A stretch of DNA of 64,000 nt from Hydra vulgaris. Its lineage: Eukaryota; Cnidaria; Hydrozoa; Anthoathecata; Hydridae. The stretch is from the NCBI RefSeq assembly GCF_038396675.1, contig NC_088931.1, positions 69,823,001 through 69,887,000 of the forward strand, in the 5' to 3' direction. Both the position numbers and the translations under genes were made by a program. Below are positions 4,553 through 59,980 of this stretch, piece by piece; position 1 is the stretch's first letter; the number at the start of each line of letters is the position of its first letter. The notes beneath the pieces are model-generated. The model saw only the letters and a list, made by a program, of their open reading frames with translations. It was not told where the DNA came from and ran no database searches.

Positions 4553-4700
<148 letters not shown>

Positions 4701-4785
4701 TCTATGTATTAGTGTCCTACATGCAGATACCCAATCATCTGTAACTTTACTATCTTATATCAAATTGCATATTATTGATGTATAA

Positions 4786-4945
4786 ACTGCTCTTTTTTTT
4801 ACCCCAATAAATCTTTTTAGAATATTTATTACCTGGCAATGTACTATCAGTAATTTCAAGTACAATCGCATTGGGAAGTAGTGACATTTACTAAAAACCC
4901 CTATCTCCTGAGAGTTATATTATTGGGGTAAAAAAAAGAGCAGTT
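4786..4945. mobile_element. Nested MITE-like element, right copy
   Basis: Reverse-complement partner of the element at 1177-1337, with the same GAGCAGT/ACTGCTC inverted termini and flanking TATA-rich bases. Confidence 0.6.
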
Positions 4946-5769
4946 ATACATTATTAATGCAATCCATAAACTAATATAAATCTTAGAAAATTAAAAGAAA
5001 AAAAAATGTAAGGAATTGCTTAACTAATAAATACTAAACTAATAATTATATGCCACTAAAGTAAAAAAAAAAGTAGTGACATTTACTGATACCCATATCT
5101 CCTGAAGCTTTCAACATCTTTAGCAATACACCAAGGGTCCAACACTTTGTGTTAAATAGAAATTTTCGATGACTGTTGGCTAATGATCAATAAAATAAAC
5201 TTCAAATCATGAAAGTTTTACTTTATTAAAACCATATTTCAACAGCCAGCAAACTAATTCAAGTTGATGATAATGATAAAACTAAAGAAAAATAAGAATA
5301 TAACAAAAAAACTTGTAAAAAAAATATAATCAGAACATAATACATTCAGTACCTAACTAAACTAGTTTGAGAAAAAAATGGTACAGTAAATCCACATTTT
5401 TCAGCCTTTGTATTGGTAAACCTAAAAATCTAATCAATAATAAGAGAATATAGCAAAACATTTAGGAATGTTGTTACAAGTAACTGAAAAAAAGCCGTAA
5501 AACTACTTCAATTTACCAATTAAATCTAACCAATAATTTAATTAATAGATAATTTCAACAAATAATTCAGAAATAAGACTTCCAATCATTCAAATTCCAT
5601 TACATTCATAAATTATTAATACTACTCTGCAAAAACTCTAAACTAATTATTTAGAAGCCAGATTATTAATGCAATCCATAAACTAATAAAAATCATAGCA
5701 AATTATAATAAGAATAGAAATTGTAACTAATAAATCCTAAACGAATAATTATACCACTTAAGTCATGAA

Positions 5770-6960
5770 AAAAAGAACGCTAAACTCTATATAGAACTAA
5801 ACAGATTATAATATGCTTGACTCATACTTTAAACTAACCATTTGCAGCTAATGAAAAGTAAAAAAGAACTCTAAACAAACTCTAAAAGTAAACTGATTAT
5901 AATATGCTTGACTCATTCTTTTAACTAACTATTTTCAGCTGATGTAAAATAAAAAAGTACTCTAAACAAACTCTAAAAGTAAACTGATTATTATATGCTT
6001 GACTCATACTTTTTACTAACTATTTGCAGCTGATGTTCAGTAAAAAAGAACTCTAAACAAACTCTAAAAGTAAACTGATTATTGTATGCTTGACTCATAC
6101 TTTTTACAACTATTTGCAGCTGATGAAAAGTAAAAAAGAACACTAAACTCTATATAAAACTAAACAGATTATAATATGCTTGACTCATACTTTAAACTAA
6201 CCATTTGCAGCTGATGAAAAGTAAAAAAGTACTCTAAACAAACTCTAAAAGTAAACTGATTATAATATGCTTGACTCATTCTTTTAACTAACTATTTTCA
6301 GCTGATGTAAAATAAAAAAGTACTCTAAACAAACTCTAAAAGTAAACTGATTATTATATGCTTGACTCATACTTTTTACTAACTATTTGCAGCTGATGTT
6401 CAGTAAAAAAGAACTCTAAACAAACTCTAAAAGTAAACTGATTATTGTATGCTTGACTCATACTTTTTACAACTATTTGCAGCTGATGAAAAGTAAAAAA
6501 GAACACTAAACTCTATATAAAACTAAACAGATTATAATATGCTTGACTCATACTTTAAACTAACCATTTGCAGCTGATGAAAAGTAAAAAAGTACTCTAA
6601 ACAAACTCTAAAAGTAAACTGATTATTATATGCTTGACTCGTACTTTTTATTAATTATTTGCAGCTGATGTACAATAAAAAAGAACTCTAAACAAACTCT
6701 AAAACTAAACCGAGAATTATATGATTAGCTAAAAGTTTTTACTAACTATTTTCAGCTGATGTAAAACAAAAAAGTACTCTAAACAAACTCTAAAAGTAAA
6801 CTGATTATTATATGTTTGACTCTTACTTTTTACTAATTATTTGCAGCTGATGTACAATAAAAAAGAACTCTAAACAAACTCTAAAACTAAACTGAGAATT
6901 AAATGATTGGCTAAAAGTTTTTATTAACTATTAGCAGCTGATGTAAAGTACAAAAAAACT
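5770..6960. repeat. Right-arm satellite with higher-order period
   Basis: About 13 tandem units of roughly 90 bp (CTCTAAACAAACTC ... GCTTGACTCATAC ... GCAGCTGATG). Four-unit blocks recur: the variant with CTCTATAT appears near 5785, 6146 and 6508, about 362 bp apart, so blocks rather than single units were duplicated. Units after 6600 are more diverged. Confidence 0.85.
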
Positions 6961-7314: not shown

Positions 7315-11843
<4,529 letters not shown>

Positions 11844-11929
11844 CTTTTAAGTATGAATGAAATGAAGTTTTTCAAATATTTTCCCAATGATTGGAATTTA
11901 AAATATATGAAATCGGAATTTGTTTTGAC

Positions 11930-18965: not shown

Positions 18966-19753
18966 TTGTGTTAGTATCTTCAAAACTATTTGTATTCAAC
19001 TCATCATCAATGGTTTTGACAGATTCATCTTCACTATCTTCGCTAACCTCTTCATAATATGTTACTTCTTCATTGTCTTCACAAAACTTTGATTGTATAT
19101 ATAGTTTTGTTTGTTCAGCATTACATGTACATTTATGCGAACTAACCCCAATACATACACTTCAAATTTCTTCATTAAATTATCAACAAGGGTATGATGT
19201 GTAACATTAAGATACCTGTTCATAGAGTTATCAATCCACTTGTCTACTGTTAGTGTGAATTCAACAATTTTTTCCTTTAGGTAATACTAACTGTTTCACT
19301 TTTTTTTATTTTATAAAATTTTAAAATGCACTTTGTTACAGTAGCAGGACTTTTAGGCATGTCAAACCCTTTACTTCTAATGTACTCATTAATGGCTTGT
19401 GATTTCACTATAAAATTTATTGAAAACCCATTCTCTGCTACACATCAAGATGAAATTTTCTCCAATGTTTTAGTTTTAATAAATTTTTTTATGCTATTGT
19501 CAGCATAAGTACTTTTAAACTTTTTCGATGTCAATGGTTCACTTTGATCATAACTTATCTCGAATGAATTTTTAGTAGCAGCAGATAGGCTAGAGGAAAT
19601 TAAGAGAATCTTATGAACTTTTAAATGATTAAGAAGTGGTGTTGTAGATGATCCCTTACATCTTAATTGTTGACTACAATTTTTACAGAAAGCAATATCC
19701 CTATTTTTTTCATTTCTCATAAATTGGTTCCAAACTTCAGATCGTTTTGACAT
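18966..19753 (-). pseudogene. hAT transposase, N-terminal half (BED finger), broken
   Basis: From the ATG at 19753 it encodes a BED zinc finger (VWNQFMRNEKNRDIAFCKNC, then LLNHLKVHK). A frameshift near 19450 is followed by ENGFSINFIVKSQAINEYI, SKGFDMPKSPATVTK and, after another shift, TVDKWIDNSMNRYLNVTHHT, all typical of hAT transposases. The fragment ends where the inserted element starts. Confidence 0.8.
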
Positions 19754-19759
19754 TACTAC

Positions 19760-20600
19760 AACTTTTAAAGTTAAAGAAATATGTAAATGAACTATTAGTT
19801 TAAAATTAAAGTAATATATCTAGAGTGAAATATTAATCTAGAATTTTGTGTAATAAGTCAATTATTAAAGTAAATACTTATATAAATATGCTTATAACTT
19901 GTTGTATGACCAATTTAAAACAAATTGGAAACTGTTATTACATAATAAAATAGCTTAAAATAATAATGAAAAAGTAAAATAATTTAAATTATATATGATT
20001 TTTAAATCTAAATTATGTATGATTTATATTACATTTATATTACTTTTTGCTTGTTATATATAACAAGCAAAAAGAAACTAAAAGCACTAAATGAATTAAA
20101 TAAAAGATAAATAATGTTCAAGACAAAATTCTATAAGTTCTATAATTTGTTTAGAAATACAAAAATATAAAATTAAATATTAAAAATTGCACAAAAAGTT
20201 GTAAAATTGTATTTTTTTATAGTTATAAAATTCATATAATTTATTTTTTAACAAAACTCCATTTTTTGCACTAACATAAATACAATTACAAATACATACA
20301 TATACATAACTTTAAAAGAATTCTGAGTAAAATATATATTGTCGCTGCTAATATTACGACATTATTTTGCCAGCAGAGTTTCACTTTACTCAACTACTAC
20401 GAAACAATGGCTATGACAATCAATTATAGTTTATTGTAAACATGAGTAATTATATTTTACAAAATATAACTACGAGAAATCACTAAACGGATTGCTAACT
20501 TCTTACTGAGTTTTTATTGGTTATAACAAAAAAATCCCATGGATACAAAAACATACACACTTATACAACTTTATGCATTTAAATATTTTACATTAAAATC
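19760..20600. other. 5' flank of the second hAT, no gene
   Basis: AT-rich sequence with a small palindrome TTTTGCTTGT-TATATA-ACAAGCAAAA near 20044-20070. It is probably the hAT 5' untranslated part. Confidence 0.5.
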
Positions 20601-22710: not shown

Positions 22711-22775
22711 TAAATTTAATGAAAGAATTTAAAATGTCAAAATTAATCAAGTCTTATGACAAAATGATGTCAATG

Positions 22776-22804
22776 CACAGTGGGCCAGTAGGTGGACAAA
22801 ATTG
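22776..22804 (+). promoter_or_regulatory. Left terminus, RSS-like (13-bp spacer)
   Basis: Heptamer CACAGTG at 22776-22782, 13-bp spacer, then ACAAAATTG at 22796-22804. This matches the vertebrate nonamer ACAAAAACC at the first six positions. Presumed transposase binding and cleavage site. Confidence 0.65.
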
Positions 22805-23289
22805 GAAAAATTTTAGTTGTCTAATCTTGAAAACCTACTTAATTTTAGTATCTACATATATTAGGAGAAATCTATTAATAATTTATTTATACTAAATCCC
22901 TTAGTTACCAGGACTCTAAGCATTTGAATATTGAGATTAAATAAAAAATAAAAAAAATTATAAATAAGTAATTAACGGTGACATCAACGTTGTGTTATAT
23001 TTCAATTACATCTACGTTTTTGAAACAAAAAATTAGTACATGTTATTCTAGAGTATTTAGAGATAAGAAAAACCAATGTGTGAAATAAATTTGTCATAGC
23101 ATGTTATCTCAGTTATACTTTGAAAATCACAGATTAAAAAAAAAAATTTCTTAAGAAACTTATTTTTTGCCGCACAATAACTAATAATTACCACAATTTG
23201 CCATGTGTTGTCTTATATTTATTTGAGCTATATGATGCTTCAATCGAGTTTTAATTGATTGCTCGTCCCCTTAAATCCCCGTCCAGATT

Positions 23290-23610
23290 TTATGTATGTT
23301 TTAACTTGGTTGCTATGGTACTAAATTTTGCATAGCAACAACTCATTTTTACATTAACGTTGTTTTAACAGTATTTTACTTGCGCTAAATACACAATATT
23401 GGGGGTATGTATTAAAATGAGATTCAGAATTCTTATGAGGTTAACTTTTTTTGGTTACTATGGATACCTTACTTTGCATAACATAGCAACAACATATTTT
23501 CGGTAGTTGTTAGTAATTTAATTACTAACACTGACAGTAATTTAATTACTTTTAATTTTAATTACTAACACTTGTAGTAACTTAATTACTAACAAGTATT
23601 AGTAGTCCAG
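23290..23610. repeat. Left subterminal repeats of the RAG1-like element
   Basis: Copies of GGTTGCTATGG and CATAGCAACAAC (23308-23345, 23452-23495), then three or four copies of TTAATTACTAACACT at 23505-23602, just upstream of the ATG. Confidence 0.6.
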
Positions 23611-23675
23611 GCGGCATATATATTATAACATTTTACTTTTAAATACAAAATACTTGTTACAATAATTATTTAGAT

Positions 23676-25647
23676 ATGGTTTTGTTAAACTTAGACATTC
23701 ATAATTTTCTCCAAAAAAACAATCTTAGTATTTCAAAACAAAATATTACTGAAGATATATTAAAATTTATTCAGCCAAAATTTGCTGATTTTAAAGACGT
23801 TGATTTTAGACATGCTGTTCAACGATTTGTTTACTTGTATAAAAAAAAGTGGAAATCTGCAAACTATAATGTGAAAAATTTTGAAAAGAAGTTTGTGAAC
23901 TGGCTTAATGAATATTTAATTGTCAGAAAAAAAGACAATGAACCAACTGCAAGTAGACGTGGTCGAAAACCAGTTGCATTTGATAATAGTTCTAATAAAA
24001 CTAAAAAACGGCGTGTATCTTGTTTAATTGAATCTCATTCATCCAATGAATTATTTTTTGCTGCTAATAAAAAATTTAGAGATGAATCTGTTGTTATTGC
24101 TGCCAAGAATGTTTTAAATATATCAAATACAGATAAAGCAACTAAATATTCAGCAGACGAAGCACTGGCTTTAATAATTGATGCAAGTCTGACAGAAGCT
24201 TCCTATCAATTGATTAGAAGCGGAGCCTTGGAGAAAGAATATAACATCTACCCCGCTTACAATGATGTCAGAGATGCAAAATTGAAATGTTATCCTGCAA
24301 ACATAACAGTGGAGGACTATTCAGCTTCAGTTCCTTTAAAAGATTTAATGACTCATACTTTGCAAAGAATCTGTGCAGTTCAGGAACCTGTGCTAAGGCA
24401 CTTGATATTGAACGACAAAGCAATAAAAACAATGACACTAACGTGTAAGGCTGGTTTTGATGGTGCTACTGGCCAAAGCATTTATAAACAAGTTTTATCA
24501 GAACCCGACATTAACAGAGATTTAAAGCGTGAAGAATCATTATTTATTACTTGTCTTGTCCCATTGGATTTGACTGGATTTAACAACAGCAACGGTGCCT
24601 ATTTGGAGAAATCAAAAGTCGTCCTCCACAGCCTATTGTAGACCCATAAGATTTGCATACAAAATGGAATCCAAGGAATCTGTGATTGAAGAAGATCAGT
24701 ACATTAAAAGTGAGATAGAAAGCTTGGGTAATATTTTATTAGAGGTTTGCGGATCTTCTATTGAAGTGAATTGTATTATTGAACTTACAATGATTGATGG
24801 GAAGGTTCAAATAATATTATCTAAAAAAAATAACTCATACCAATGCTGTTCAGTGTGTGGTGTCTCTCCAAAAAATATGAATAGTCTTGATATCCTTAAT
24901 ATAGATTATACTAACAGAGAGTTCAAATATGGTCTTTCCAGTCTTCATGCATGGATTCGATTTTTTGAGATGTTATTGCACATTGCATATAAAAAAGAAA
25001 CAAGAAAGTGGCAAGCAAGATCTAAAGAACACAAAGAAAAGGCATCTGTAGCTAAACAAAAGATTCAGACTGATTTTATGAACAAAATGGGACTTGTTGT
25101 TGATTTCCCTAAAAGTGGTGGTTCTGGAACAAGTAATGATGGCAATACCTCAAGGCGTGCTTTTGCAGCATATGAACAAACAGCTGAAATTCTGGGTATT
25201 GACCAAAACCTTATATTCAGATTTTACATTATCTTGGTAACGCTCTCTTCAGGATATGAAATAGACTGCCTAAAATTCAAGGATTATTGTTTTGACACTT
25301 TTAGACTATATGTGTCCCTTTATCCATGGTATTACATGGCTCAATCAGTTCTCAAAGTATTGATACATGGACATGACATAATTAAAAGCCTTACATTACC
25401 CATCGGACTTATGTCAGAGGAAGCTCAAGAGGCTAGAAATAAAGACTTTAAATCTTATCGCGAAAATTTCAGCCGAAAAACATCCAGAAAAGCAACAAAT
25501 ACTGATCTTATCAATAGACTCCTAGTTTCCAGTGATCCTGTTATTTCATCATTGCGTAAATCAACATCACACCAAACAAATCATAAAGCATTTCCTTCAG
25601 ATGTTTTACAATTACTTAAACAATCTTCAAAAGATATTATTGTTTAA
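23676..25647 (+). pseudogene. RAG1-like transposase with one frameshift
   Basis: Two overlapping frames: 23676-24641 (321 codons from the ATG) and 24595-25647 (350 codons). They join naturally across one extra base in the GGTGCCTATTT region near 24597, so the gene is nearly intact, about 655 residues. The first half ends with TCKAGFDGATGQSIYKQ, where Asp262 aligns with RAG1 Asp600 (DGMGDVSEKH). In the second frame, Asp68 (LTMIDGKV) lies 17 residues before a CSVC zinc pair, as RAG1 Asp708 lies 19 before CTLC. LMSEEAQEARNKDFKSYR resembles the RAG1 SEGNESGNK region with Glu962. A basic stretch, SRRGRKPV, near residue 93 looks like an AT-hook. No RAG2-like kelch gene is present. Family relation is by motif reading only. 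Confidence 0.8.
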
Positions 25648-25749
25648 TAATTTTTTGATGTAATTTAAAATTGATAACGTTTTCTTGCACTATTTTTTGC
25701 TTTTATTATTCCTAAAACATTATTTACCTAAATACTCAATTTTTATTCA

Positions 25750-26090
25750 ATATAGGTGGGTCAAAAATCCGATAAGATATTCAAATATCAATTTACCACT
25801 TTGTAACTAAGGAAAGTATCCGGTAACTAAGCAATATAAGTATCCATAACAACTAAATTTAAAAAATTATCACTTTTGTAAGAAGTGTGATCTCATATTG
25901 GTACTCATGCCAAATTTAGTGAATATAGCACTTATAAAATATCTGCAGATAACAAAAGTAGGTTGTTGCTAAGCAAAATAAAGGTATCCATAGCAACGAA
26001 ATAAAAAAATATTACCTTCATAAAAAGCGCAGACATCATATTAGTACTCATACTAATTTTAGTGAATATAGCTCTAATATTAAATTAGTT
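25750..26090. repeat. Right subterminal repeats of the RAG1-like element
   Basis: Two diverged tandem units, each with AAGTATCCATAACAAC or AGGTATCCATAGCAAC, followed by ATATTRGTACTCATRC and TTTAGTGAATATAGC. They are inverted relative to the left set. Confidence 0.6.
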
Positions 26091-26092
26091 AT

Positions 26093-26130
26093 GAATTTTG
26101 TCCAGTAAAAGTGCATTCTGGCCCACTGTG
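26093..26130 (-). promoter_or_regulatory. Right terminus, RSS-like (22-bp spacer)
   Basis: Read inward on the minus strand: CACAGTG (26130-26124), 22-bp spacer, then ACAAAATTC (26101-26093). The spacer differs from the left end by 9 bp, recalling the 12/23 asymmetry of recombination signals. Confidence 0.65.
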
Positions 26131-26626
26131 CAGTGGTGAAATAAAAAAAGACGAGAGTAGGGTAACAAATCTTTAATTCACTTATGATTTAAAGGCACAA
26201 GGTTCTCTGCTTTTAAATCAATGGTGAACATAAGAAAAGTAAATGTTGCATTTAATTAAAACCTAATTTACTTTGAAACTTTATTTTATTTTCTTATAAA
26301 AAAATTCTTCAATAGAAATTTATTAGTAAAAAATACATATATTTAAAAGTTGATATAAAAATATAAATTAGAAAAAAAATTTATTCCGAAACATTAAAAA
26401 GCTTAATAATTTGAAAAACGCTAAATACCGTAATATTAAAATATTAGCGTAAAACAATTAACACAGCACAACATAAAAGTATATATTAAAAAATAAAACA
26501 TTTTCTTCATAAAAAAAAGTAATAAAATTTAATAATAACTCTTTATAAAATAATGTATAAATATAAAAATAGAGATCTCTTCTATATAACTAAAAACGTA
26601 AATAAAATTTCCTTTTCCATTTGAGT
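26131..26626. other. 3' flank of the phosphatase gene
   Basis: AT-rich sequence downstream of the minus-strand stop at 26627. On the minus strand several AATAAA hexamers occur (for example the complement of TTTATT near 26381), any of which could be the polyadenylation signal. No gene. Confidence 0.45.

Positions 26627-59980
<33,354 letters not shown>

Follow-up and report, generated by a model that had tools for sequence, protein, structure and literature searches.

Here we analyzed a 64,000-nt stretch of the Hydra vulgaris genome (contig NC_088931.1, positions 69,823,001 to 69,887,000 of the forward strand; hereafter the window) and the Transib element that occupies its positions 22776-26130. 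Very probably, this element is a dead member of a young Hydra Transib family with many copies, hereafter family 1, which was mobilized in trans; its unequal end spacers would reflect a preference for bringing together one short and one long end in synapsis, without RAG2. Transib transposases are related to the antibody-gene-cutting enzyme, and the evidence from the ends of this family, of diverged families in the same genome and of the encoded protein bears on the origin of the 12/23 rule.

Two-class ends in three Transib families

An earlier note on the window, made by a model from the letters alone, had described a RAG1-like transposon with both ends starting in CACAGTG and an inward box at 13 bp on the left and 22 bp on the right. 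Both termini were found where it had placed them. The left end of the window copy reads CACAGTGGGCCAG-TAGG-TGGACAAAATT, and the right end, in inward reading, CACAGTGGGCCAG-AATGCACTTTTAC-TGGACAAAATT; the heptamer CACAGTG at both ends is identical to the V(D)J recombination-signal heptamer, and the distance from it to the box ACAAAATT is 13 bp and 22 bp, respectively. Only two matches to CACAGTGGGCC (at most one mismatch) were present in the window, both at the element ends, against 0.08 expected from shuffling. In a window this AT-rich, the box on its own is not rare (TGGACAAAATT, at most one mismatch: nine matches vs 5.7 expected). The two ends have an 11-nt word in common beyond the first 13 nt; 0.35% of random window pairs reached this length, as did 0.15% of shuffles, so that the window copy taken alone gives moderate support only.

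To read further copies, the 911.5-Mb genome (15 contigs) was searched with both ends. The left-end query gave 720 candidates, of which 40 were scored (all about 98% or higher), and the right-end query 1378, with 99-100% for the 40 scored. We read 39 other copies, namely those most similar to the window's left end, with 3.5 kb fetched for each; four of them (L016, L023, L033 and L040) had no right end inside the 3.5 kb and were excluded from the right-end and duplication counts. The left box lay at 13 in all 39, with the sequence ACAAAATG, and the right box at 22 in all 35 copies with a right end (ACAAAATT intact in 34, one substitution in L042), so that the spacing described for the window copy proved to be conserved. 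A final T in the left box, as in ACAAAATT, was seen in the window copy alone. The assignment of ACAAAATT as a conserved box on both sides was corrected, as the left box ends in G in the 39 other copies; a shared inward box is indeed present at both ends, its common form being TGGACAAAAT.

Perfect 5-bp target duplications flanked 29 of the 35 other copies, with the most frequent bases C (22), A (17), T (22) and G (25) at positions one, two, four and five and a mixed third position. The flanks of the window copy, CAATG and CAGTG, match at four of five positions, and this agrees with the 5-bp duplication size of Transib. A reading of these flanks as a 4-bp TGCA duplication was abandoned, since in the other copies the duplication is 5 bp long and lies outside CACAGTG. 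The median pairwise identity among the other copies is 98.9%, and family 1 looks like a young burst, in line with the listing of the CMC-Transib group as putatively active in Hydra (PMC12220107, excerpt). An open frame of at least 655 codons is present in nine of the 35.

Agreement among near-identical copies says little about function, and relatives from other families were therefore examined. Coding DNA is 57-63% identical between the three families in matched stretches. Family 2 is represented by P0002 (Hydra vulgaris LOC136091543), which was found in the same genome with 99% identity over residues 1-491 and bears out the proposal of a cnidarian relative; family 1 copies match P0002 at 60% identity, and the coding DNA of the two families is 63% identical. 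In the four copies of family 2, the left box ACAAAACC was at 13 in all three left ends read and the right box at 24 in all three right ends read (one being ACAAAACT); both ends and flanks could be read in two copies, each with a perfect duplication (L057, CGCTG; L058, CCCTG). The four fetched copies of family 3 match P0007 at 56-57%, with a DNA identity of 61% to family 1 and of 57% to family 2. Here, the left box was ACAAAACC or GCAAAACC at 12 (L060, L062), and the right box was CCAAAACC at 22 (L061, L063) or, in the damaged L062, at 21. No family 3 copy had both ends undamaged: the first base of the left end is changed in L062, which is flanked on both sides by CAGTG, and the left part of L060 is rearranged.

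The spacer pairs are therefore 13/22 in family 1, 13/24 in family 2 and 12/22 in family 3. The resemblance to the 12/23 arrangement claimed for the window copy holds in that one end is short and the other long; the spacers are not exactly 12 and 23. The boxes ACAAAACC and CCAAAACC of families 2 and 3 are near the V(D)J nonamer, and the spacer sequence past the outer repeat differs between families. In L057, L058, L062 and the window copy, the gene is preceded by the short end and followed by the long one. L064, a compact non-coding element of some 1.3 kb in which no stop-free stretch exceeds 88 codons, has a layout like that of the three families, with spacers of 13 and 22 and flanks AAATG and CAATG. 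Short-spacer ends of CACAGTGGGYCAGGTGGTGGACAAAACC type with no recognized long end within about 1.6 kb were also observed at C1:5101133, C1:53193293 and C2:29715110 (L065, L066 and L067); they perhaps belong to an additional family with a different or more distant long end.

Spacers and pairs were then counted genome-wide with two patterns, over the first 100 listed places of each. The pattern CACAGTGGGCCAGN{0,30}GGACAAAATT had 556 exact matches, which gives the number of exact right-type ends in the genome, vs 0 for the reversed control; it favors right ends, its last T being absent from left ends. Among the 100 matches listed, the spacer was 22 in 97, and 13, 16 and 23 once each. The pattern CACAGTGGGN{8,30}ACAAAACC had 194 matches vs 2 for the control, with a spacer of 13 in 81 of the 100 listed, 24 in 16, and 12, 15 and 17 once each. 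Its listed matches formed 14 inward pairs within 8 kb, all of 13 with 24, and adding the list of the first pattern on contigs 1 and 2, where the two could be combined, gave one more, of 13 with 22. Thus, all 15 inward pairs among the matches listed consisted of one short and one long end, and no inward pair of the same class was present among the matches listed in both patterns. The other listed pairs, two outward (13/13 at 603 bp and 22/22 at 3471 bp) and one in the same direction, are oriented unlike the ends of one element. These 15 mixed pairs fit a pairing rule and are equally explained by inheritance.

The transposase and the state of the window copy

The features of the window copy are as follows (window positions).

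22771-22775, plus strand: left copy of the target duplication, CAATG (4/5 match with the right flank; chance 3.5%)
22776-22803, plus strand: left (5', short-spacer) terminus, CACAGTG, 13-bp spacer and ACAAAATT (ACAAAATG in 39 other copies)
22776-22788, plus strand: left 13-bp terminal inverted repeat CACAGTGGGCCAG, from the sequence
23295-23500, plus strand: left subterminal repeats carrying GTTGCTATGG-type motifs, in inverted orientation to those on the right, from the sequence
23676-25647, plus strand: Transib transposase gene, frameshifted near 24598, in open pieces 23676-24641 and 24574-25647
24459-24461, plus strand: first catalytic Asp codon, D262 of P0001 (RAG1 D600 counterpart by alignment)
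24796-24798, plus strand: second catalytic Asp codon, D376 of P0001 (RAG1 D708 counterpart)
24847-24858, plus strand: CxxC pair, C393 and C396 of P0001 (zinc ligands by homology)
25351-25353, plus strand: codon 561, zinc-ligand His by homology, Leu in the window copy
25429-25431, plus strand: catalytic Glu codon, E587 of P0001 (RAG1 E962 counterpart)
25833-26079, minus strand: right subterminal repeats in two units spaced by about 144 bp, from the sequence
26094-26130, minus strand: right (3', long-spacer) terminus, CACAGTG, 22-bp spacer and ACAAAATT, from the sequence and the other copies
26118-26130, minus strand: right 13-bp terminal inverted repeat CACAGTGGGCCAG, from the sequence
26131-26135, plus strand: right copy of the target duplication, CAGTG (4/5 match with the left flank)

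Profile and fold searches placed the protein with HzTransib first and RAG1 next, and not in a family unrelated to RAG1 and Transib, which the earlier note had named as a refuting outcome. The transposase matches HzTransib with E=1.6e-101; HzTransib is the closest solved relative (41% identity over 475 aligned residues) and is co-linear with it, in a comparison set with no Transib subgroup I reference. P0001 carries the catalytic Asp-Asp-Glu (DDE) triad and the C2H2 zinc ligands (D262, D376, E587, C393, C396, H561 and H566). The counterparts proposed for RAG1 Asp600, Asp708 with its CxxC pair and Glu962 were recovered as D262, D376 with C393/C396, and E587, with the RAG1 residue numbers D600, D708 and E962 as in the earlier note. 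Pfam searches with both open pieces matched no transposase family, and the RAG1 family PF12940 matched eight of 17 relatives and not P0001. In scans of bacterial and viral contigs, 17 and 34 stretches, respectively, matched the pattern and none was confirmed as a relative; the end pattern had zero matches in the contigs scanned.

A homologous transposase, the DDE and C2H2 residues, 5-bp target duplications (also in L057, L058 and L062) and terminal inverted repeats of the CAC heptamer-like type are all present. The relationship to RAG1 stands by profile and fold, and the element is better called a Transib than a RAG1-RAG2-like (RAGL) transposon. There is no room for a RAG2-like gene in it, as no stop-to-stop frame exceeds 71 aa apart from the two transposase pieces, so the absence of a RAG2 partner holds for the element, the rest of the genome not having been searched for RAG2.

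Judging from its letters, the window copy is dead, with a frameshift near 24598 and the zinc-ligand H561 replaced by Leu, neither of which the earlier note had seen. Position 561 is His in all 17 rows of alignment A1 and in at least 90% of the 53 rows of A2; among 36 aligned copies including the window, it is H in 34, L in one (the window) and unread in one. Position 174 is Glu in the window copy and Lys in nearly all relatives (K in 30 of the same 36 copies, E in the window copy alone, unread in five).

Unlike P0001 and the open family 1 copies, which are single frames, family 2 genes (e.g., C4:47483926-47485923) match P0002 in two blocks, at residues about 1-491 and 484-636, separated by a short stop-bearing gap that is perhaps a small intron. 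Near both ends of the window copy (23295-23500 and 25833-26079), GTTGCTATGGATAC-like motifs recur with a period of about 145-150 bp, inverted between the two sides. They resemble RFX X-boxes and are possibly promoter or subterminal transposase sites.

Elsewhere in the window, two 1.5-kb inverted repeat arms (1-1548 and 4575-6122), 100% complementary and 3 kb apart, look like the ends of another large element, and a tandem array of a 22-bp unit in dozens of copies extends from 48111 to about 49500. Two protein tyrosine phosphatase gene pieces lie on the minus strand (32434-32769 and 37961-39130; the larger is 70% identical to its best match, an unnamed protein). Transposon-like or zinc-finger pieces at 42052-42612 (plus), 19445-19819 (minus) and 11424-11846 (minus) include DDE_3 (Tc1/mariner-like), a BED finger and a ZSWIM3 N-terminal domain.

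Possible meaning of the unequal spacers

By homology with Transib and RAG chemistry, the element would have moved in a cut-and-paste manner, with intact copies providing the RAG1-like DDE transposase in trans. The enzyme would nick at the heptamer and leave hairpins on the flanking DNA, and the excised element would insert with a 5-bp stagger. In a transposase dimer, each active site would take one heptamer and cut there, while the N-terminal domain, the counterpart of the RAG1 nonamer-binding domain, would grip the inner box. The two-class ends suggest that such a dimer docks one short and one long end, and the kept inequality of the spacers would then express a 12/23-like preference in synapsis, with no RAG2. 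Since the layout is conserved across families, a role for the two-class ends is likely. A stricter proposition, that the RAG1-like transposase of Hydra Transibs alone would enforce a true 12/23-like pairing rule, with its N-terminal domain on boxes at 12-13 and 22-24 and only mixed pairs used, can be put forward tentatively and seems to us rather doubtful. If true, the pairing rule would predate RAG2 and antigen receptor loci, and would be displayed by a recently spreading cnidarian transposon.

Several observations weigh against such a preference for mixed pairs. The family 1 copies are near-identical and were picked by their likeness to the window copy, so that their agreement amounts to inheritance, and independent evidence for the layout is limited to two further families and a single compact element. 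The long spacers vary between families (22, 24 and 22), which a rigid rule does not predict. The alignment of the nonamer-binding domain to RAG1 is weak by sequence (5 bits). In excerpts of published accounts, HzTransib ends are called symmetric, so that Transib chemistry has no need for asymmetry (PMC8289069), and mouse RAG1 in the absence of RAG2 is reported to favor 12/23 no more than 12/12, an argument against a RAG2-free rule (PMC8355894); the latter source also holds that asymmetry is recognized only by RAG1 complexed with RAG2.

An alternative explanation is that the same Transib carries its unequal spacers as an inherited accident. The box would then serve only as a piece of the terminal repeat or as a signal for transcription, and recognition by the transposase would depend mainly on the outermost 13-17 bp, as has been suggested for the RAGL complexes of invertebrates, which are expected to be relatively insensitive to asymmetry (PMC7204232, excerpt). 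The youth of the copies within one family, the difference between long spacers of 22 and 24 and the behavior of RAG1 alone all favor it, and we give it close to an even prospect. However, spacer sequences diverge between families together with the coding DNA, yet the ACAAAA/CCAAAA-type box and the orientation persist, as do short spacers of 12-13 and long ones of 22-24 (21 in one damaged copy).

A RAGL transposon of ProtoRAG type that has lost RAG2L would also explain a heptamer identical to the recombination signal and asymmetric ends, and the ends of the Aureococcus RAGL share the geometry seen here (a 13-bp block, 4/13-bp spacers and a 10-bp block, PMC9435367; here a 13-bp repeat, 4/13 and TGGACAAAAT). 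ProtoRAG-type RAGL proteins bear a C-terminal tail with a CCGHC motif (PMC7204232, excerpt), whereas the last 60 residues of P0001 contain no Cys and hence no CCGHC-type tail. With HzTransib rather than RAG1L as the closest solved relative and no second gene in the element, such an origin appears very unlikely.

Chapaev elements duplicate 3 or 4 bp of target, in contrast with the 5-bp duplications here. A Chapaev or other CACTA-like superfamily with CA..TG ends, for which C(2)C and H(3-4)H motifs are common and termini mostly CA..TG (PMC12730594, excerpt), can practically be dismissed given the identity to HzTransib over 475 residues, although Chapaev was set apart without a direct protein comparison.

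Comparison with known systems

The Hydra element shares its transposase fold and catalytic core with HzTransib of Helicoverpa zea (PDB 6pqn, 6pqx and others), and both have heptamer-like ends; the HzTransib ends, however, are described as having little or no nonamer similarity (PMC8289069, excerpt), whereas those of Hydra carry a nonamer-like box and are asymmetric. Asymmetry, with spacers of 12 or 23 ±1, has been reported for the ends of Transib5 of Drosophila and Transib2, N1, N2 and N3 of Anopheles (PMC8355894, excerpt, citing Kapitonov and Jurka 2005). Compared by description only, these elements carry heptamers and nonamer-like boxes as here, in another host phylum, and the same excerpt names some Transibs as the only other known case of 12/23-asymmetric transposition. 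All subgroup I Transibs have asymmetric ends, while subgroup II includes both kinds; the two are marked by the alpha11-alpha12 region and by CTT1 (I) or CTT2 (II) (PMC9435367). Asymmetric 12/23-like ends of Transibs have been published before (PMC8355894, PMC9435367), so that the arrangement is of a known kind.

Bacterial Transibs are described in PMC9435367, which also names Transib-7_HMp and Transib-9_HMp of Hydra, from the same host group and superfamily as family 1. Hydra is included in the Transib tree of PMC4411706 (excerpt). Our literature search, which left Repbase outside, found no description of family 1, and the family may already be in Repbase.

Among RAGL elements, AanRAGL of Aureococcus has 5-bp duplications as well as the end geometry noted above, but it carries RAG2L and its block sequences are different, and amphioxus ProtoRAG prefers asymmetric ends (PMC8289069, excerpt). 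With vertebrate 12/23 signals, the Hydra elements share an identical heptamer, a family 2 box (ACAAAACC) close to the nonamer ACAAAAACC and the combination of one short with one long spacer; they differ in that the spacers are 12-13 and 22-24, the signals are transposon ends and the element is without RAG2. With nine of 35 frames open, an exact recombination-signal heptamer, nonamer-like boxes and two-class ends common to diverged families, family 1 offers a young system for testing RAG2-free pairing.
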